DNA from: Methanorbis furvi
GTDB taxonomy: Archaea > Halobacteriota > Methanomicrobia > Methanomicrobiales > Methanocorpusculaceae
Reading direction: 5' to 3'
Assembly: GCF_032714615.1 (NCBI RefSeq)
Contig: NZ_JAWDKA010000002.1
Location: 124,001-188,000, forward strand
Length of the DNA stretch: 64,000 nucleotides
Below are positions 5,444 to 16,897 of this stretch, piece after piece. Made by a program: the position numbers and the translations under genes. The notes under the pieces are model-generated. The model was not told the DNA's origin and searched no databases. It saw nothing but the letters and a program-made list of their open reading frames with translations. Within the stretch, counting starts at the first letter, position 1. The number at the start of each line of letters is the position of its first letter.

Positions 5444-6108
5444 CTGATCCTCTCTGAATGCGTGTAGACCTTCTCCGGCAGACAGATGAGCGTGAGGTTG
5501 CAGGAATCAGCAAGCTCTACAGCGAGAGCTGTGGGCGGCTGACAGGATGAAAGAATCGAGTAGCCTGCGTTGAGTGTTTTTCGAACAGTGTCTGCGGTGA
5601 CTTTTCCTGAGAGAAGAAGAATGGCGTCAGCTGGCTTACGCCCATTTTTCAGAACAAGACCGGTCACTTTGTCAAGAGCGGTGTGCTGACTCAGGTCGGA
5701 TGCAAGGAAAGTTGCTCCATCAAAAAATCGTGTGGCAGCAGAGTAGCCGCCAAGAGCGAGAATGTTAGAAGGAAACTCTGCGGCAAGAAGCGAAGAAGAG
5801 GCAGTGATTCCTTTTCCCAAGACCGGCAGTTTTGCCGGATCAAGATAGGACGCAGTCCCTCCGCAGCCGGAGATTACCGCACGTTTGGGCAGAAGAACCT
5901 TGAACGGGTTCGTGGTCAAGACGCTGATCGTCTGATGATCGATCATGACGGACTCGATCTCGTCCGAAGGAATGATTGCTTCGGTTGCGAGGTAACCGCG
6001 GGCGAACTCTTCGAGATTCTCCGGCAGCATGAGGATTGAGAGAAGGTTTCTGCCGTTGACAGTCAGAGCAAAGGGCTGTTCAGGCAGGAGGCCGGAAAAA
6101 ACTGTCAT
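5440..6108 (-). CDS. fdhD: FdhD-like sulfurtransferase for formate dehydrogenase
   Basis: FdhD passes sulfur to the molybdenum or tungsten pterin cofactor of formate dehydrogenase; it acts in the cytoplasm. The 222-residue protein shows the family blocks EQPFALTVNGRNL, EEFARGYL, SGCGGTASYLD (Cys82), LGGYSAATRFFDGATFLASD and QHTALDKVTG (142-150). Only one Cys is present in the loop where E. coli FdhD has CxxC. The start ATG overlaps the stop of the upstream HTH gene (ATGA), so the two are translationally coupled. It fits formate-using methanogenesis. Confidence 0.88.
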   Translation of the reverse strand: MTVFSGLLPEQPFALTVNGRNLLSILMLPENLEEFARGYLATEAIIPSDEIESVMIDHQTISVLTTNPFKVLLPKRAVISGCGGTASYLDPAKLPVLGKGITASSSLLAAEFPSNILALGGYSAATRFFDGATFLASDLSQHTALDKVTGLVLKNGRKPADAILLLSGKVTADTVRKTLNAGYSILSSCQPPTALAVELADSCNLTLICLPEKVYTHSERIR

Positions 6109-8757: not shown

Positions 8758-9573
8758 ATGAGACAGATGATTACGGAGGCGGTCGGCAGATTTGTCAAAG
8801 ACTACGAAGAACGTCCCGGCATTGCCACACGATGGGGCGAGCCAATTGTCGGATTCTGCGATGCAAAAAGTTCTGCGGTAGAGAATCTGAAGCAGGCCGT
8901 GTCACTGAATCATCTGATGCCGCAAGATCTTCTTGCTGATGCGAGTGTGGTTGTGGTATATTATCTACCGTTCGCAAAAGTTATCGCCGAGACGAACCGC
9001 GAGGGAACTGCCGCATCACCTGAATGGGCACGGGCGTATTCTGAGACGAACGAGCTGTTTGCAGAGCTGAATGTTCATCTGGTAGAGCTGATTGAACGAA
9101 ACGGCGGAAAGGCAAAACTTCCGGGACCTGCGGCAGGATTTTCCGGCGATTTACTCATAAGCAACTGGTCTCACCGGCATTTTGCAGTGCTTGCCGGTCT
9201 TGGAACGTTCGGGGTAAACAATATGCTGATTACGAGGATGGGATGCTGCGGAAGAGTGAGTTCGTTTGCAGCGAGTATTCCGGTTGAGCCTGATGTCCCT
9301 CTTAGAGAGGAGTTGTGTCTCTACAAACAGAAGGGAACCTGCGGGAAATGTTTTGAGAGGTGCCCCGCGGGAGCACTTTCGCCGGATGGGTTTGACCGAC
9401 AGCGGTGTTTTGCGGTGTGCATGGAAAATGAGGCGGTGTATCCGGGATGTGATGTGTGCGGGAAGTGCGGGGTTGGCGTGCCGTGTACGTTTTTTGGGAG
9501 ATTAAAAAATAATTCGTTCGGTTGCCTGCGAAAGTCTGAAATAAAGATCCTTAAAACAGTACTGTACAAATAA
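8758..9573 (+). CDS. QueG-like 4Fe-4S protein with an altered C-terminus
   Basis: A 271-residue protein of the epoxyqueuosine-reductase-like Fe-S group. The N-terminal domain includes VVYYLPF and SNWSHRHFAVLAGLGTFG. The C-terminal ferredoxin part has CGKCFERCP and CDVCGKCGVGVPC. Its exact substrate is unknown; many archaeal members are annotated only as Fe-S proteins. The last 23 residues after VPCTFFG are unlike a Fe-S end. The natural end appears to be displaced: at 15500-15573 the same DNA reads on to GRNA and stop. The protein's present tail is encoded by the edge of the inserted island. Confidence 0.8.
   Translation: MRQMITEAVGRFVKDYEERPGIATRWGEPIVGFCDAKSSAVENLKQAVSLNHLMPQDLLADASVVVVYYLPFAKVIAETNREGTAASPEWARAYSETNELFAELNVHLVELIERNGGKAKLPGPAAGFSGDLLISNWSHRHFAVLAGLGTFGVNNMLITRMGCCGRVSSFAASIPVEPDVPLREELCLYKQKGTCGKCFERCPAGALSPDGFDRQRCFAVCMENEAVYPGCDVCGKCGVGVPCTFFGRLKNNSFGCLRKSEIKILKTVLYK
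9437..9497 (+). repeat. Left copy of the 61-bp direct repeat flanking the island
   Basis: It begins TGTATCCGGGATGTGATGTG and ends in the TTTTTTGG run. It matches 15500-15560 at 60 of 61 positions (C/T at 9467 against 15530). The left copy lies inside the QueG-like coding frame. Likely an attL-type junction (inference). Confidence 0.9.
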
Positions 9574-9608
9574 ATTTGTAGGGCCGTCAATCGCTTCTAC
9601 TATTAGTG

Positions 9609-10784
9609 CTATTGTCTTACAACGTAGTCTTTAATATGCCGGATAATTTCTTTTCTTGCATCACAATAGAAATCCAATTTTGGATTACCATCTTCAGCAG
9701 GCAGGCGACGATTGTAACATCCAGCCTTACAGATAGTAAATACATCACAGTCAAGGCATTCTGATCGATAAAGATTCGTATTGCCCGCCATATTTACAAA
9801 TGGCTCATCGAGAATTATTTCAGAAAATGATTTTTCCAGAATATTTCCAATACGATTCTCAGGTTTCGAATTCAGGCACTCACAGGAATAAATATCTCCA
9901 TTCGACCCAACAGAAATATTTCTATGGCATTTTCCAGAAAGTTCGCAAATCACAGATGACTTGTCCGGAATCTCTTTGTAACCCAGAAGATATAGCACAT
10001 CTTTGAAAAATCTGATTTCATACACCGGATTTTTTTCAGAAATCCAGATATCAAATAATTTTATCATAAATGATGAATAGTCTTTTGGAGGGAGAGAGAT
10101 GTCGGTTTCGTAAAAAAATGCCGGTGTAAAGTCTACTTCAAATGGTTTTTGTTCCTGAAAAAACGCATGTATCTCTTTTTCATGACCAATGGCTTCCGTA
10201 TTGATAACGGAGATCGCACTCCACGGATAATCGCACTCGCGTAAGAGAGAAATTCCCTGCATTGTCTGATCGAAGGATGGCTTTCCATTTTTATGAATTC
10301 GATGAGCGTCTTGAATTTCACGTGGTCCATCAATGCTGACACCTATTCTAAAATGTTCCTTTTTGAATAGACGAAGAAAATCATCATTAATAAGAGTCCC
10401 ATTGGTCTGAATACAATTGTCAATGAGGAGACCTTGTTTGCGATATTTTTCCTGAATGGATAAAATAGCTTGAAATCGATCAATTCCTACTATAAGTGGT
10501 TCTCCCCCGTGCCAAATAAAATAGAGAGATGGTGTTTTATTCCACCCATATTTTCTATAAAGGTTCTGCTTATACTCAAGAATTGACGCTAACATATTAT
10601 CAATGATTTCCAGATCCATGTCTTGCAGGGCATGTGTTTGAAGGGCATTTTCCCGATAACAGTACGTACAGTGAAGATTGCAAAGATCGGATATCTTGAA
10701 AACCGCGCTAAATACATCATAGTATTGATAATCCTGAAGCGGTGGGAAAGGAGAGAGATTCTGAATATCTGGAATTCTGTTCAT
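9609..10784 (-). CDS. Radical SAM/SPASM peptide-modifying enzyme
   Basis: A 391-residue enzyme. The radical SAM cluster motif CNLHCTYCYRE has Cys35, Cys39 and Cys42, followed by WHGGEPL and QTNGTLI. The C-terminal SPASM region carries at least seven Cys (CELSGKC, YSCEC, CLDCDVFTICKAGC, FYC), enough for auxiliary 4Fe-4S clusters. Enzymes of this layout include anaerobic sulfatase maturases and makers of C-C, C-O or thioether links in ribosomal peptides. It lies 45 bp downstream of the repeat peptide on the same strand, so that peptide is the likely substrate. No sulfatase is nearby. The N-terminus (about 30 residues) contains no full RRE-type domain that I can recognise. Confidence 0.9.
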   Translation of the reverse strand: MNRIPDIQNLSPFPPLQDYQYYDVFSAVFKISDLCNLHCTYCYRENALQTHALQDMDLEIIDNMLASILEYKQNLYRKYGWNKTPSLYFIWHGGEPLIVGIDRFQAILSIQEKYRKQGLLIDNCIQTNGTLINDDFLRLFKKEHFRIGVSIDGPREIQDAHRIHKNGKPSFDQTMQGISLLRECDYPWSAISVINTEAIGHEKEIHAFFQEQKPFEVDFTPAFFYETDISLPPKDYSSFMIKLFDIWISEKNPVYEIRFFKDVLYLLGYKEIPDKSSVICELSGKCHRNISVGSNGDIYSCECLNSKPENRIGNILEKSFSEIILDEPFVNMAGNTNLYRSECLDCDVFTICKAGCYNRRLPAEDGNPKLDFYCDARKEIIRHIKDYVVRQ

Positions 10785-10829
10785 AGTCTTGAGATACTTG
10801 GAATGAAATTTTCTAAAAAAATGAAATGA

Positions 10830-10970
10830 TTACTGGTGTTCTGGTGCTCTTGCAAAACCAGCTTCAGGCGCTCTCGCAAAACCTGCTTCTGGAATCATTA
10901 CTGATTCTTTGAGAAATGCAATATTTTTTTCCCTAAGTTCAGTAATCATGATGTTAACCATTTCTTCCAT
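10830..10970 (-). CDS. Predicted RiPP precursor peptide with two PEAGFARA repeats
   Basis: A 46-residue peptide too short for routine calling. Residues 1-26 are a charged, amphipathic leader-like part with ELREKNIAFLKES. Residues 27-42 are PEAGFARA twice, followed by PEHQ and stop. The two 24-bp units differ at four bases, all at third codon positions and all silent, so the peptide sequence is under selection. It lies between a toroid gene and the radical SAM gene, all on one strand. I propose a leader plus a two-unit core, with Phe-Ala-Arg as the likely modified triplet. Met4 or Met8 could also be the start. The chemistry is inferred, not shown. Confidence 0.8.
   Translation of the reverse strand: MEEMVNIMITELREKNIAFLKESVMIPEAGFARAPEAGFARAPEHQ
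10843..10890 (-). repeat. Two tandem 24-bp units coding the core repeats
   Basis: The units 10843-10866 and 10867-10890 match at 20 of 24 positions. Each codes PEAGFARA. The four differences are synonymous (Pro CCT/CCA, Ala GCT/GCA, GCA/GCG and GCA/GCG). Confidence 0.9.
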
Positions 10971-11016
10971 ACTGCTATACTATAGTTACTCCACTATATT
11001 ATATTTTGTTATTGGA

Positions 11017-12618
11017 TCAATCGAGAATGCGGAGAATAATTCCAATAATTTCATGAGATTTTATGTAAGTATAAGTAAAGGCAAATACTGCAACAATAAC
11101 AGCAAATACCATTGGAATATATTCATTTACACTGTTAGACGTCAGATGGAATAAAAATATAATTGAACTTAGGATTGTTATCGCTGCTGCAAACGCTGTC
11201 AATATCTGATTGAGAAACACGGCGTTGAGGTAATCTTTTTTGCAATGTTCGTTCGCTGTTTTCAGTTCAATTGATTCAATTAGATCTGCCCCACTTTCAA
11301 TAGTGGACAATGATATTACCTCATCATATATAGTGTAAATTGTTTTTCTTTCTTTTGTAAAGGCAGTAAATTCCGCCAATGTTAGTAATGCATGAGAAAA
11401 AAATACCGTCATATATGAACTATGAAGATAACTACCATCAAAACAATAATGTTTTTCATCAAATATCCAGCGAATTGCTTTAAAAACTCGGTCGTGTTGA
11501 AGATGGAATGGGTGAGTTGGTTCCAGTTCTTTCTTGGATATGTAACGTGCCATCAATTTACGTCTGCCAGTGGGTACAGTTATTTGTTGATCAATGTTCT
11601 TTAATACACTTCCAATAATAAGGTAGGCATTAAGACAACGAACTGTATCATCATGAGTACCCCATGTTCCATTGTTTTTCTGTTTTCGTTCTAGGCAGTT
11701 ACAAGAACTTAGCAGAATGTTGTATATCTTGCAACAAAGTTGAGAATTTTTCCTATACAATGAGTAATCCCATAAATATGCCAAATAGAAGGCTAATGCC
11801 TCACCACCATCAGCAGTAGCCATATATTTATTCCAGCTCCACACCATCTTGTCTCCTGCAGAAGACTTTTCCATATCGTTTGCAATGCGTAACGCGATAC
11901 TATGCATTAATGAGCGTAGATGGCGTGAAGTCAATCCTAATTTATTACGAGTATCCTTATCTCCGAGTAATAATACTTCTACATTAGGATTTTTTAAGAT
12001 ATCTATTATCATGGCTAAGACGGGAGCCAAGTCAGTTGCACTAAGTGTTGTTTTGGCATGTTCCCTATGCTTTAGATATATTATGTATCGTATCCAGGAC
12101 AAGGCACCAGAAACAATTTTTTGAACATATTTCGGAGATATTGTTGTTGGAATGGGGTGTCGAAGTACAAATGATATGATATAATGCAAGATCATCGCGG
12201 TATCCCAAAGATTGTTATCCCAGTTGTAGTAACTTTGGGTTAATGTATTCTCATCATATCCGTTTTTTTTAGAATTTGTCTCTATTTCTTCAGTAATATT
12301 TGGATGGGTTGCGGAGCGTATCAACCATGAAAATGTATCAGACTCAGTAGATCGTATTTTTTGTTGGAGTATATTTATTTCAGTACATCTTGGAGAATTC
12401 GGATCTAATATGAGATATTGTTCAGATTTTAATAGAAAATGAGCTGAAAGAGCTGCCTCCCAATATGATGAGCGTCCTGCACCAAAAACTTCGTTTGTAC
12501 CATCAAAAGTTTTCTCTGTACTGTTGCAGAACCATTCAGCCGCGGAGATAATGTTTTCAGTAATTTCAGAGATGAATGCATTGTTTGGATCTGAAAACGG
12601 TCGATGTTTTTTGCTCAT
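11017..12618 (-). CDS. Membrane-anchored alpha/alpha-toroid protein A (prenyltransferase/terpene-cyclase-like repeats)
   Basis: A 533-residue protein I cannot name. It has helix-pair repeats with regularly placed aromatic and small residues: SYWEAALSAHFL (51), NWDNNLWDTAMILHYI (132), MATADGGEALAFYL (266), NGTWGTHDDTVRCLNAYL (316) and FDGSYLHSSYMTVFF (393). The GTWG..DDT block resembles the QW repeats of squalene-cyclase and prenyltransferase toroids. Two TM helices (about 471-491 and 501-518) end the protein, so the toroid is membrane-tethered. It has no LanC-type zinc ligands. It precedes the repeat peptide by 46 bp. A role in processing, carrying or recognising the peptide is inference. Confidence 0.75.
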   Translation of the reverse strand: MSKKHRPFSDPNNAFISEITENIISAAEWFCNSTEKTFDGTNEVFGAGRSSYWEAALSAHFLLKSEQYLILDPNSPRCTEINILQQKIRSTESDTFSWLIRSATHPNITEEIETNSKKNGYDENTLTQSYYNWDNNLWDTAMILHYIISFVLRHPIPTTISPKYVQKIVSGALSWIRYIIYLKHREHAKTTLSATDLAPVLAMIIDILKNPNVEVLLLGDKDTRNKLGLTSRHLRSLMHSIALRIANDMEKSSAGDKMVWSWNKYMATADGGEALAFYLAYLWDYSLYRKNSQLCCKIYNILLSSCNCLERKQKNNGTWGTHDDTVRCLNAYLIIGSVLKNIDQQITVPTGRRKLMARYISKKELEPTHPFHLQHDRVFKAIRWIFDEKHYCFDGSYLHSSYMTVFFSHALLTLAEFTAFTKERKTIYTIYDEVISLSTIESGADLIESIELKTANEHCKKDYLNAVFLNQILTAFAAAITILSSIIFLFHLTSNSVNEYIPMVFAVIVAVFAFTYTYIKSHEIIGIILRILD

Positions 12619-12656
12619 GTTTACCCCAATTTACTTCTGTCATTGTGTGATTAACA

Positions 12657-14075
12657 TTACCAAATAATAATGCCAATAATGGCATATAATCCTATTATGA
12701 AATTAAGTATGAATAATGTCCGACGATATGTTCGAGCTGTTCTCAATTCTCGCCAATATTTATGATTTTCTGCCTTTAAACGAAGAACATCTCCACGTTC
12801 CTTTGTCGCTTTAAGAGGCATATGTGTCAGAACATCATCATATAATTTATACATGGATTTTTCGAAAAATACTTGGCATGTTTCATATAATGAGAGAAGA
12901 AATTCTGAAAAAAACAATGTAAGATAGGGGGTGTGTATTATACTCCCATCACCAGGATATTGCTTCGCATCAACAAGTGTTCGAAGAGCCTTGAATATTC
13001 GATATGGTTTGATTATATATGGATAACCGGATGTTTTTGAAACAGAACTATGCGTTCCTAAGTGAATGGATTGATATTTATTTAGCACATAACCCATTTG
13101 AAGATAAGCATGGGCACTGCGAATGGTATCATCCTGACTCCCCCAAGTACCAGTGGATGTCTGCTTCTCTTCCAACCACCGACACGTCCCAATCAAACAT
13201 TTGTGGATGTTCTGATAGTTGTGATGCGTAGTTCGATAGATTTGTACGTTGGTATCATAATATTCTGCAAGAGCTAAACCGCAATCAGCTGTTTTCACAT
13301 AGGTTTCCCATCTACACATATTCTGTTTATCACCGTCTTCCCATTTACAATCCTCAATTAGCTTTTCGATGATTTCATGTATAAAATTATCTCTCCATTT
13401 TTTGTATACATCCAATTCAGTTGATGATTCTAATTCTGAAAGATGTAATAATAGAATGAGTGTTTTTGAAAAATTCGACGAATATAATGCATATTTATTT
13501 TGAGCAAGGGGGTTGTTTTTTGGATCGTTGCTGAGAAACATGAGCTCAATCCATCGAAGGGAGGTGTAAATGAGCTGCTTGAGTTCATTTCTCGTTATTT
13601 CATTAGGAATGTCTGTATCATTTTTTTTCAAAAAATCAAAGATGAATTGCAAAACACATGAAGTGTTCCAAACATTCCCATCCCAACGATAACATGTATA
13701 TTTTTGTAGAGGAAATGACTCAGCATTCGAATACAATTGTTCATCTCCATCATCGCAACATATTTCTTTATTATCAAAAATCCATCTGAGAGTTGCCAAT
13801 ATCTGGGTATCAATATTTAATTCACGGTCTAATTTATTGGTGTAAGATATTTTGTCAAATTTAATCAGAAAACTTCCAGCTGATGCTGCTTCCCAATATG
13901 CATTGGAATGAAGCATGAATATTTTTCCATGATATTTCGAAGAGTATTCCGATGCCCCAACAAGCCATCCAGCAAGATCTGTCATATATCGCATGATTTC
14001 TTCAGATACATGACTATTTGGATTAGGGAATGGGTGTGAGGTTAGAATATTTTGCTTCATATTTTTCATTACCAT
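12657..14075 (-). CDS. Membrane-anchored alpha/alpha-toroid protein B, paralog of A
   Basis: A 472-residue paralog of the next gene. The same five blocks occur in the same order: NAYWEAASAGSFL (58), RWDGNVWNTSCVLQFI (130), KTADCGLALAEYY (261), TGTWGSQDDTIRSAHAYL (308) and GDGSIIHTPYLTLFF (375). One C-terminal TM helix (about 452-471) follows a basic stretch. The identity between the two paralogs is low outside these blocks, so they may act as a heteromer. They are 38 bp apart on one strand. ATG choices at 14075, 14069 and 14060 cannot be separated. Function unknown. Confidence 0.72.
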   Translation of the reverse strand: MVMKNMKQNILTSHPFPNPNSHVSEEIMRYMTDLAGWLVGASEYSSKYHGKIFMLHSNAYWEAASAGSFLIKFDKISYTNKLDRELNIDTQILATLRWIFDNKEICCDDGDEQLYSNAESFPLQKYTCYRWDGNVWNTSCVLQFIFDFLKKNDTDIPNEITRNELKQLIYTSLRWIELMFLSNDPKNNPLAQNKYALYSSNFSKTLILLLHLSELESSTELDVYKKWRDNFIHEIIEKLIEDCKWEDGDKQNMCRWETYVKTADCGLALAEYYDTNVQIYRTTHHNYQNIHKCLIGTCRWLEEKQTSTGTWGSQDDTIRSAHAYLQMGYVLNKYQSIHLGTHSSVSKTSGYPYIIKPYRIFKALRTLVDAKQYPGDGSIIHTPYLTLFFSEFLLSLYETCQVFFEKSMYKLYDDVLTHMPLKATKERGDVLRLKAENHKYWRELRTARTYRRTLFILNFIIGLYAIIGIIIW

Positions 14076-14144
14076 TGCAAATGTGAATAATTTTGGAGTA
14101 TGCTTCTTGTAATCATTATTATCTCAAATATTGTGACCTCAAGT

Positions 14145-14792
14145 CTATTTTCTGTATTGATTGGGATCATATTTTTGTTTCACTACCGATATCAGTTCTT
14201 GAAACATCTCCATCTCCATTTCCTGTTTCTGGTGTATCTCTCTATTAGATTCGCATTGTTTAAGATCATATATTTCTTTCATTATCTGAAAATTTGTTTC
14301 AAACACACTCATCTCCTTTTGCTGCATCTGATGAATGAACCAAACAATGATGATTACACATATAATATATCCGATGATCAGACCAAGATTTAAGATCAAG
14401 TCGGAAATCAACTGTGATTGGATAAGATTTCCCTTCATAGTATCCAAAAAAAATACATTATCCTCAATTTTAACTAATAGTACGTTCATTGGATCAGTAG
14501 AGATACGATCAAAATTCCATAAAACACCATGATTATCTAGTGACGATGAATATATCTGTGACACCATACAATAAATCAATGGAAGTAACAATATAGTAGA
14601 GTATATTAGTAATTTTACTCCATGCCATTTTGGATACGATTTGGAAACATCTACTACTTGATTTTCAAAAATCTTACAAAAGTCATTATCAGCCAAAATA
14701 TTCATGCCGAAGCCTGAAGTAGGTACCATGGAGCCGCAAACTGGAACATTAGGATCGGAAATCAGTCTTTCAGAATCATCCTTGTCACACAT
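14145..14792 (-). CDS. Two-TM protein with C-terminal coiled coil, first gene of the island set
   Basis: A 215-residue protein of unknown family. It has a polar N-terminus with SDPNVPVCG, a TM helix near 59-78, an external-type segment of about 50 residues, a second TM helix near 132-152 and a long charged coiled coil (QQKEMSVFETNFQIMKEI onward, rich in Gln and Glu). I start at ATG 14792, since upstream codons are AT-rich and without protein character. It lies 69 bp upstream of toroid B on the same strand. A transport, sensing or immunity role is possible but unsupported. Confidence 0.65.
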   Translation of the reverse strand: MCDKDDSERLISDPNVPVCGSMVPTSGFGMNILADNDFCKIFENQVVDVSKSYPKWHGVKLLIYSTILLLPLIYCMVSQIYSSSLDNHGVLWNFDRISTDPMNVLLVKIEDNVFFLDTMKGNLIQSQLISDLILNLGLIIGYIICVIIIVWFIHQMQQKEMSVFETNFQIMKEIYDLKQCESNREIHQKQEMEMEMFQELISVVKQKYDPNQYRK

Positions 14793-15297
14793 ATAATTAT
14801 TGCTCCTACAATACCAACAGATTGGTAGTATACACATATGCAGCAATACTACATAATAATTGTGCATAGTAAATAAATATAACATTGCAACATAAATATT
14901 ATGTGGGTATTTATACAAATGACCGGTGCAATTGGTGGTGGCACATAACATACACATACAAACATTACAAAAGTCCACATCATCGTAAATCAAAATATAC
15001 ACCACAGTATAAACATTACACATTATGAATATTCATGAATATTATGAGTGAAATTATCGCAAATAATTGATATACTCCATGTAAAAAGACCTTTGGCAGT
15101 TCTCAAATTTGTAAAATTATTAATTTCACATCATCGTTTTTCAAGACAAATACAAATGATTTTAAGAGATATAGCTATCTAATTTTGTAGATCTTAATAA
15201 TAATCTCCCGATCGCCAAAACATTCATTAACCAACTAATTCCATCATAACATACGAACAATCTCTAAATACATAAGCACCAAAGAGGACTCCCTCAA
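14793..15297. other. AT-rich noncoding flank of the island
   Basis: No protein-like frame is seen. The DNA is very rich in A and T with repeated AACATTAC and ACATAAATATT words, and a 12-bp palindrome ATGAATATTCAT at 15025-15036. It should carry the promoter of the minus-strand gene set starting at 14792. Confidence 0.45.
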
Positions 15298-15432
15298 GAA
15301 CTAGAAATCCATCTCCTAAAGCTAAGCGAATATCTTGGTATTGAAAACTATCGAAGCCTTTGGTTCAGTCAACAGAGGGGAAGACATCCCTACAAATTCT
15401 CCGCCCAGACAGTAGTAGTACGTCTCAGGTAG
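15298..15432 (+). pseudogene. Possible remnant of a transposase N-terminus
   Basis: The frame reads ELEIHLLKLSEYLGIENYRS, then LWFSQQRGRHPYKFS and a stop at 15430. The RGRxPYKFS-type block after a short helical region resembles the N-terminus of some IS transposases. A +1 frame continues with HRIERQPLRTAQAKRWELRG. No inverted repeats or DDE residues are visible. I offer it as a decayed fragment only. Confidence 0.3.
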
Positions 15433-15499
15433 TTCATAGGATCGAAAGACAACCTCTAAGAACTGCTCAGGCGAAACGTTGGGAGTTACGTGGAGACGT

Positions 15500-15560
15500 T
15501 GTATCCGGGATGTGATGTGTGCGGGAAGTGTGGGGTTGGCGTGCCGTGTACGTTTTTTGG
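15500..15560 (+). repeat. Right copy of the 61-bp direct repeat flanking the island
   Basis: Second copy of 9437-9497 with one mismatch. It lies just outside the AT-rich block and carries the natural downstream sequence of the host gene. Likely an attR-type junction (inference). Confidence 0.9.
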
Positions 15561-15573
15561 AAGAAATGCTTAG
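15500..15573 (+). pseudogene. Displaced 3' end of the QueG-like gene
   Basis: In the frame of the host gene this reads VYPGCDVCGKCGVGVPC, TFFGRNA and stop (TAG 15571-15573). That is a sensible short end after the last Fe-S Cys. It has no start codon or upstream coding sequence, so it is the orphaned tail left after insertion at 9437-9497. Confidence 0.8.
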
Positions 15574-15610: not shown

Positions 15611-15669
15611 TTTAGGGTTATAACCCTAAATATATGCTAAGTACCTGGAATGTTTCTGGGTATAACCCA
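15611..15669. promoter_or_regulatory. Palindromic operators before the AAA/DUF4143 ATPase
   Basis: A perfect 20-bp palindrome with half-site TTTAGGGTTA lies at 15611-15630. A second related site, TGGGTATAACCCA (15657-15669), ends five bases before the ATG. Both share GGGT(T)ATAACCC. A TATA-like AATATATG follows the first site, so repressor binding would block transcription or translation (inference). Confidence 0.6.
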
Positions 15670-15673
15670 TAAC

Positions 15674-16897
15674 ATGTCAATAGTTCCACGCAACCAGTAT
15701 ATGCAGAAAATTCTGCCATATAAGGATCAGCCTTTCATCAAAGTGATCACCGGCATACGACGCTGCGGCAAATCAGCGATTCTTTCGCTGCTCCAAGCCG
15801 AACTTCTCAGTACAGGTATTCCTGCATCACACATTATCCGGATCAATTTTGAGAATCTGGATTATGCCGAGATTACATCGGCAAAGGAGCTGGACAGATA
15901 TGTGAAGGTGAGAATGACAGATGCAGGGAGATATTATGTTCTGCTTGATGAGATTCAGGAAGTTGAACAGTGGGAGAAAGCGGTCAATTCACTTTTGGAA
16001 GACGACAGAGCTGATATCTATCTGACCGGATCGAACTCACGGCTGTTGTCTTCAGAGCTTGCGACCTACATTGCGGGAAGATATGTGGAAATTCCTGTGC
16101 AGACACTGTCATTTTCAGAGTATCTGGAGTTCGTCGAGCATCGGACGGGGGAGAGACCTACTGATATTCATGCGGCATTTTTGTCATACTTGCGCCTCGG
16201 AGGATTTCCTGTGATTCATACTGCCGAGTACTCTCCTGGATCCATGGAAAAAATCGTGTATGATATTTATTCGTCGGCAATCCTGCGGGATACCGTGCAG
16301 CGATACAATATCCGAAATATTGATCTGCTGGAACGGATTGTGGGGTATGTATTTGAGAATGTAGGAAATATTTTTTCTGCGAAAAATGTGGCGGATTATT
16401 TTAAAAGCCAGCACCGGAAGGCGGATCTGAACACGATCTATAATTATCTGAATGCACTCGAGAGTGCATTTATTATCCGGCGGATTCCCAGATATGATCT
16501 TCGGGGTCGGGAAGTGCTCGCAACAATGGAGAAGTATTATGTGGGCGATGTGTCGCTGATTTATGCGCTGATGGGGTATAAGGACCGAATGATTGCAGGA
16601 ATTTTGGAAAATCTGGTGATGCAGGAGCTGAGCCGCAGAGGGTATCGGGTGTTTGTGGGAAAACAGGATGTGCGTGAGGTGGATTTTGTGGCGGAGCGGC
16701 AGGAGGAGAGAGTGTATGTGCAGGTTTGTTTCCGGATGGAGTCAGAGGAGACGGCAAAGCGTGAGTTTGCCCCTCTGCTGGAGATCCGTGATCATTATCC
16801 GAAATTTGTGGTGAGTATGGATGAGGTGTGGCGAGATAATGTGGAAGGAGTTCGGCATGTCCACATCGCAGATTTTCTGCTGATGGATGGATATTGA
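15674..16897 (+). CDS. AAA ATPase with DUF4143 domain
   Basis: A 407-residue P-loop ATPase of the AAA_14/DUF4143 type common in archaea. Walker A is GIRRCGKSA, Walker B is YYVLLDEIQEV, and a sensor-like YLTGSNSRLLS follows. The C-terminal DUF4143 part has LGGFPVI and a PD-(D/E)xK-like FVGKQDVREVDFVAE stretch, as many members do. The biological role of the family is unsettled. I chose ATG 15674 because the AAA domain begins close to it. It has a paralog at 41844-43136, also preceded by paired operator-like repeats. Confidence 0.88.
   Translation: MSIVPRNQYMQKILPYKDQPFIKVITGIRRCGKSAILSLLQAELLSTGIPASHIIRINFENLDYAEITSAKELDRYVKVRMTDAGRYYVLLDEIQEVEQWEKAVNSLLEDDRADIYLTGSNSRLLSSELATYIAGRYVEIPVQTLSFSEYLEFVEHRTGERPTDIHAAFLSYLRLGGFPVIHTAEYSPGSMEKIVYDIYSSAILRDTVQRYNIRNIDLLERIVGYVFENVGNIFSAKNVADYFKSQHRKADLNTIYNYLNALESAFIIRRIPRYDLRGREVLATMEKYYVGDVSLIYALMGYKDRMIAGILENLVMQELSRRGYRVFVGKQDVREVDFVAERQEERVYVQVCFRMESEETAKREFAPLLEIRDHYPKFVVSMDEVWRDNVEGVRHVHIADFLLMDGY

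Follow-up and report, generated by a model that had tools for sequence, protein, structure and literature searches.

A putative mobile island in Methanorbis furvi pairs a repeat peptide with a radical SAM/SPASM enzyme of a subfamily sampled mainly in bacteria

We analyzed a 64,000-nt stretch of the genome of the archaeon Methanorbis furvi (NZ_JAWDKA010000002.1, positions 124,001-188,000; the window, in which coordinates are counted from the start of the stretch) and focused on a block of five genes at 9609-14792. All five open reading frames (ORFs) are found on the minus strand where the initial annotation had placed them. Read from 14792 to 9609, they encode a protein with two hydrophobic segments, two toroid-like proteins, a short peptide and an S-adenosylmethionine (SAM) radical enzyme, with gaps of 69, 38, 46 and 45 bp. 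We interpret the last two genes as the center of a candidate pathway for a ribosomally synthesized and post-translationally modified peptide (RiPP).

The peptide (10830-10970, minus strand) is 46 aa long, MEEMVNIMITELREKNIAFLKESVMIPEAGFARAPEAGFARAPEHQ, and its C-terminus reads PEAGFARA-PEAGFARA-PEHQ, so that the two units described in the initial annotation are present and PEAGFARAP occurs twice. The two 24-nt repeat units (10869-10892 and 10845-10868, both on the minus strand) differ at four positions, all four of which are third-codon positions and synonymous. Since a random change is synonymous in ~26% of cases, the probability of this pattern by chance is ~0.005. The peptide repeat is therefore under coding selection, which speaks for translation of the peptide and for maintenance of its sequence. 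The repeat peptide had no match in plasmids using tblastn, the DNA of the doubled F-x-R-A-P core had none in viral contigs, and no NCBIfam model matched precursors of this kind. Between the stop codon of the peptide and the start of the enzyme gene (10785-10829) there is a T-rich run, TTTCATTTTTTTAG, that lacks a hairpin and could be a leaky archaeal terminator.

The adjoining gene (9609-10784, minus strand) encodes a 391-aa protein with the motifs CNLHCTYC, at residue 35, and NGDIYSCECL, and the segment CLDCDVFTICKAGCYNRRLP. Its assignment as a radical SAM/SPASM enzyme is borne out by matches to the Pfam families Radical_SAM (PF04055, 61.8 bits) and SPASM (PF13186, 28.5 bits), and we treat it as a putative peptide maturase. 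Based on NCBIfam, the top model is the anaerobic sulfatase maturase TIGR03942 (251.9 bits, under the curated cut-off of 349.45), followed by the dynobactin maturase DynA (NF041298, 229.8 bits, cut-off 450). The score was 125 bits against NF038005, used as a dynobactin/darobactin maturase test (cut-off 650), and 100.7 bits against TIGR04083, a family of methanogen radical SAM enzymes predicted to modify peptides (cut-off 300). Scores against the models of cyclophane maturases were 166.8 bits for YhhB (cut-off 445), 149.5 for GrrM (310), 138.9 for AmcB (425), 135.6 for FxsB (370) and 116.7 for XyeB (450). The nearest solved structures are those of sulfatase-maturating enzymes (E 4e-39).

Searches across genomes place the enzyme in a narrower group. 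A relative with 41% identity is encoded on a 9.4-kb plasmid of Cetobacterium somerae (NZ_CP092524.1), and both proteins carry NGDIxxCECL and CxDCDVFxICxxGCxNRRLP. Sampling 398 genomes of the phylum to which a Clostridia-like center belongs yielded one further member of the subfamily. Within the order of that member (24 genomes) the subfamily occurs in three genomes in total, two of which have two tandem copies; we infer that these three genomes are Thermoanaerobacterales-like. In a phylogenetic tree the subfamily forms one side of a branch with support of 94/87, and the window enzyme pairs with that of Cetobacterium (96/85). Enzyme relatives of a generic, sulfatase-maturase-like type were identified in 50 of 393 Halobacteriota genomes, and none of those examined has an F-x-R-A-P peptide nearby. 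Such ordinary archaeal relatives share ~27-33% identity with the window enzyme. A sister sequence from a different archaeal family (L027/L092) likewise has no convincing peptide nearby, and a genome-wide scan of contigs using the enzyme returned two unrelated maturases. Thus, we conclude from these comparisons of sequence that the enzyme is a member of a small subfamily, the other sampled members of which come only from the Cetobacterium plasmid and a few Thermoanaerobacterales-like genomes.

The bacterial members of this subfamily are also accompanied by short peptides. On the Cetobacterium plasmid (L017), a 29-aa ORF at 5736-5825, MNLKDFNKMTVSSDSPVTAFERAPKISNK, contains PVTAFERAP and ends 62 bp before the start of the enzyme gene. 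It is preceded by a perfect AGGAGG Shine-Dalgarno sequence six bases before the ATG. This ORF is absent from the annotation of NZ_CP092524.1. Between it and the enzyme gene lie a stable hairpin (minimum free energy -13.7 kcal/mol, z -3.25) and a T-run, to which the T-rich run in the window would be a parallel. A hairpin between precursor and enzyme genes is common where the precursor is made in excess of the enzyme. In the third, Thermoanaerobacterales-like lineage (L063), a 51-aa ORF that has a strong ribosome site contains the segment LTSHKDGFCRAPWITDE, with KDGFCRAP, and the same island holds a LuxR-type regulator, two radical SAM genes and a transporter of the major facilitator superfamily (MFS). 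A related genome (G872) retains the peptide, at 96% versus the query, adjoining the same regulator, and the radical SAM genes are absent. The peptide positions in this lineage are 9216-9371 in L071 and 12960-13115 in L063; the locus appears to be decaying via insertion sequences, and L063 also has a gene for a group II intron-like reverse transcriptase.

The peptides of the three lineages have in common the motif [GA]-F-x-R-A-P. In the ~276 kb of sequence used for comparison, chance produces about two small ORFs with F.RAP. Because such ORFs are rare, one located less than 100 bp upstream of the plasmid enzyme and on the same strand is unlikely to be a chance occurrence. When the window peptide was aligned pairwise to the two other peptides, 18 and 11 out of 2000 shuffles did equally well. 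The pair of peptide and enzyme is thus a well-supported candidate RiPP system, since three separate lineages each combine an enzyme of this subfamily with an F-x-R-A-P peptide, and the suggestion in the initial annotation that these two genes form a RiPP gains from this recurrence. The initial annotation had also stated that an enzyme always found beside a sulfatase, with no conserved peptide, would speak against this idea. We find no sulfatase among the ORFs examined around the locus and a peptide in each of the three lineages.

As to what the enzyme would do to the peptide, the closest guide is the triceptide systems (XncB, OscB, MscB and YhhB), in which a SPASM radical SAM enzyme adjoins a short precursor whose core has an aromatic-x-x motif (PMC11002830). 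The three-residue cyclophane, in which an aromatic ring is joined to C-beta of the residue at i+2, is an established reaction of several related enzymes (PMC11002830). XncB links Trp, and YhhB links Tyr or His, to the C-beta of Arg at i,i+2; Phe is used by MscB and others, and links through C4 of Phe are known (PMC11002830). The conserved aromatic-x-x core of these systems has its counterpart in the F-x-R of the window, L017 and L063/L071 peptides, with Arg as the third residue as in XncB and YhhB. The window enzyme is unlike these systems in its archaeal host, in its toroid partners and in being known here without a product. We regard this as a likeness to triceptide-type pathways rather than as established membership. 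As F-x-R in all three precursors fits the pattern of an aromatic residue joined to position i+2, a Phe-Arg three-residue cyclophane is our leading guess for the product, one that we would put at about even. Sactipeptide and ranthipeptide chemistry, which forms thioether bonds at Cys residues of the core, was also considered; neither the window peptide nor that of Cetobacterium contains Cys, which rules out the sactipeptide type for the former.

The highest-scoring models are the sulfatase maturase and DynA, the chemistry of which is unlike that of simple three-residue cyclophanes, and the conserved stretch, F-x-R-A-P, exceeds F-x-R, so that Ala and Pro may matter. The enzyme might accordingly modify the peptide in some other way than by a Phe-Arg cyclophane, for example by epimerisation, by an Arg- or Pro-centered bond or by a change to the backbone at R-A-P. 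We consider this rather unlikely given that the cyclophane models YhhB, GrrM, FxsB and XyeB also give substantial scores, though under their cut-offs, and that aromatic-x-Arg is a proven type of cyclophane substrate (PMC11002830). DynA is also a peptide maturase, but the window enzyme is below its cut-off and the precursor core differs; TIGR04083 is likewise not the family of this enzyme, which is far under its cut-off. The top NCBIfam model and the nearest solved relatives (PDB 4k37 among the sulfatase-maturating enzymes) would also be expected if the enzyme were an anaerobic sulfatase maturase, or another protein maturase, and the peptide were incidental. Both enzymes do belong to the broad SPASM group, but the score is below the cut-off and the island has no sulfatase. 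No sulfatase-like product was found among the ORFs examined around the locus, a search that was not genome-wide. The SPASM signature is also distinct: most archaeal relatives have NGDxYSCDHF and CPKNR in the SPASM region, whereas the subfamily, a separate group in the tree, carries NGDIxxCECL together with GCxNRRLP or a similar sequence. Together with the association with a peptide in three lineages, this makes a role as a sulfatase maturase very improbable.

The other three genes of the block are less easily placed. The 215-aa protein (14145-14792, minus strand) has two hydrophobic segments, its C-terminal tail is charged, and no relative of it was found. Toroid-like protein A (472 aa, 12657-14075, minus strand) carries a GTWGSQDDT block and one C-terminal hydrophobic segment, and toroid-like protein B (533 aa, 11017-12618, minus strand) a GTWGTHDDT block and two such segments. 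The two are paralogous (29% identity, E 3e-44). Searches of Pfam, NCBIfam, PADLOC and PHROGs gave no convincing match for any of the three proteins. A structural model of protein A is of modest quality (mean predicted local distance difference test score 57.6, predicted template modeling score 0.61). Its best matches in the PDB are mostly alpha/alpha toroids, namely transcobalamin, the glycoside hydrolases GH105 and GH76, a complement thioester domain and squalene-hopene cyclase, with probability ~1 and E of at least 5.8e-3. The model thus weakly points to an alpha/alpha-toroid fold for protein A, at the level of the class only, and no sequence relationship to known toroid proteins was detected. 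A search of viral folds with protein A found nothing. As terpene or squalene cyclases the toroids found no support: there was no Pfam match up to E 1, and the DxDD of class II cyclases is replaced in the alignment by SQDD and THDD. The description in the initial annotation of two paralogous, anchored toroids with a GTWG..DDT block therefore stands for the paralogy, the blocks and the hydrophobic C-termini, and at class level for the fold of protein A; the fold of protein B is not independently confirmed.

We found no relatives of the toroids or the 215-aa protein in 150 order-level, 393 phylum-level and 398 Clostridia-like-phylum genomes, or in plasmids, phages and viral contigs, a sampling that is partial. 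One weak match to a toroid (0.0075, in G444) has a stop inside and was discarded. The sequence MVPTSGF at residues 22-28 of the 215-aa protein was considered as a copy of the MIPEAGF core and rejected, as the likeness over the full protein was equalled by 376 of 2000 shuffles; 35 of 2000 was reached only when the comparison was restricted post hoc to the first 50 residues. These three genes thus lie outside the conserved core of the locus. The bacterial loci encode an MFS transporter (Pfam MFS_1, MFS_3) beside or close to the enzyme, and on the Cetobacterium plasmid the start of the transporter gene overlaps the end of the enzyme gene. As the archaeal island has no MFS gene and has these genes instead, this one locus suggests that export, immunity or further modification falls to the toroids and the 2-TM protein.

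The block differs from its surroundings in composition, with a GC content of 35.0% (9502-15492) versus 49.2% across the remaining window. It is flanked by two 72-nt direct repeat copies that are 94% identical, both on the plus strand. The left copy (9430-9501) is within the 3' end of a gene for a QueG-like 4Fe-4S protein (8758-9573), which has weak similarity to QueG and reductive-dehalogenase models, and the right copy (15493-15564) corresponds to the displaced native 3' end of that gene. Past it lies an AAA_14/DUF4143 gene (15650-16897). A congeneric relative (G024, locus L076) has the QueG-like gene immediately followed by the AAA gene and lacks the block, so that the site is uninterrupted; from the right repeat copy onward the gene order of the window is that of this relative. 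The direct repeats and the uninterrupted site identify the five-gene block as an insertion, which, like the subfamily and the conserved motif, the initial annotation had not described. A close relative of the enzyme (E <= 1e-50) is absent from all 32 other genomes of the host family. As far as its sequence tells, the block is a ~6-kb mobile island with an origin outside the genus. Since all sampled relatives within the enzyme subfamily are bacterial, the archaeon is likely to have acquired it from bacteria, a direction that we infer. No integrase gene was recognized within the island, and Rfam yielded no element. A pair of 16-nt inverted arms, which match imperfectly, lies close to the two ends of the island (9573-9588 and 15383-15398) and may mark the ends of a mobile unit separate from the 72-nt repeats. 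An archaeal TATA-like element, TATAAATA, on the minus strand at 14908-14915, ~116 bp upstream of the ATG of the first gene, is a candidate promoter for the five-gene unit.

A mobile insertion with direct repeats, present in one genome of the family only, with a plasmid-borne relative and with membrane proteins that have no relatives, is also what would be expected if the whole island were a cargo module for defence or competition, with an archaeocin-like product and toroid and TM proteins for immunity. This explanation overlaps with a RiPP pathway. PADLOC gives just a generic viperin-like radical SAM similarity and no other match on the island, and no bioactivity is known; we hold such a module to be a serious possibility that falls short of even.

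We think it reasonably probable that the island carries a RiPP pathway in which a radical SAM enzyme modifies the 46-aa peptide, likely with two Phe-Arg cyclophanes, and in which the membrane proteins form an export, immunity or second-modification part. Several observations weigh against this pathway. The enzyme reaches the cut-off of no named cyclophane-maturase model, and the independent associations of peptide and enzyme number only three. In the third lineage the peptide is ~3.6 kb from the radical SAM genes, with insertion sequence debris and the MFS gene intervening, and owing to this larger distance its association with the enzyme is weaker. The flanks of the core differ among the lineages, and similarity of the leaders is not established. 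What connects the toroids and the 2-TM protein to the pathway is gene order, with no recurrence. The five-gene combination has been seen once, and the claim that the five genes form one system finds no support in the other genomes searched, in none of which these proteins recur and where the bacterial relatives have an MFS transporter.

In the pathway that we favor, the 46-aa precursor would be made with an N-terminal leader (approximately residues 1-26, with a predicted boundary) and two PEAGFARA core units. The SPASM radical SAM enzyme would act on each unit, joining the Phe ring to the beta carbon of the Arg two residues on, to give two three-residue cyclophanes with a loss of 2 Da each. 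A protease would then remove the leader, and the product would presumably be exported. The Phe-Ala-Arg cross-links and the membrane delivery proposed in the initial annotation thus keep the standing of predictions. The membrane-anchored toroids and the 2-TM protein may serve as exporter, immunity or second-modification part, in place of the bacterial MFS transporter.

Predicted archaeal RiPP clusters include radical-SAM-modified types, and identified archaeal products are scarce (PMC12144867). In the literature covered, which includes few subscription journals, we found no paper describing the F-x-R-A-P motif. More tentatively, and we think somewhat unlikely as a whole, the locus may represent an undescribed RiPP class that has an F-x-R-A-P core and a radical SAM/SPASM subfamily of its own as its defining features and that travels between bacteria and archaea by way of plasmids and islands, with the archaeal product handled by a new membrane-anchored pair of alpha/alpha toroids that act as exporter, immunity or second tailoring proteins. 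Overall, we seem to be dealing with a rare, uncatalogued system for modifying peptides that has passed between domains of life. A mobile family in two domains with an explicit core motif would provide a directly testable enzyme-substrate pair, and the product is a candidate archaeal antimicrobial or signal. The system may also be an example of a RiPP pathway that keeps its maturase and motif while exchanging its membrane partners.

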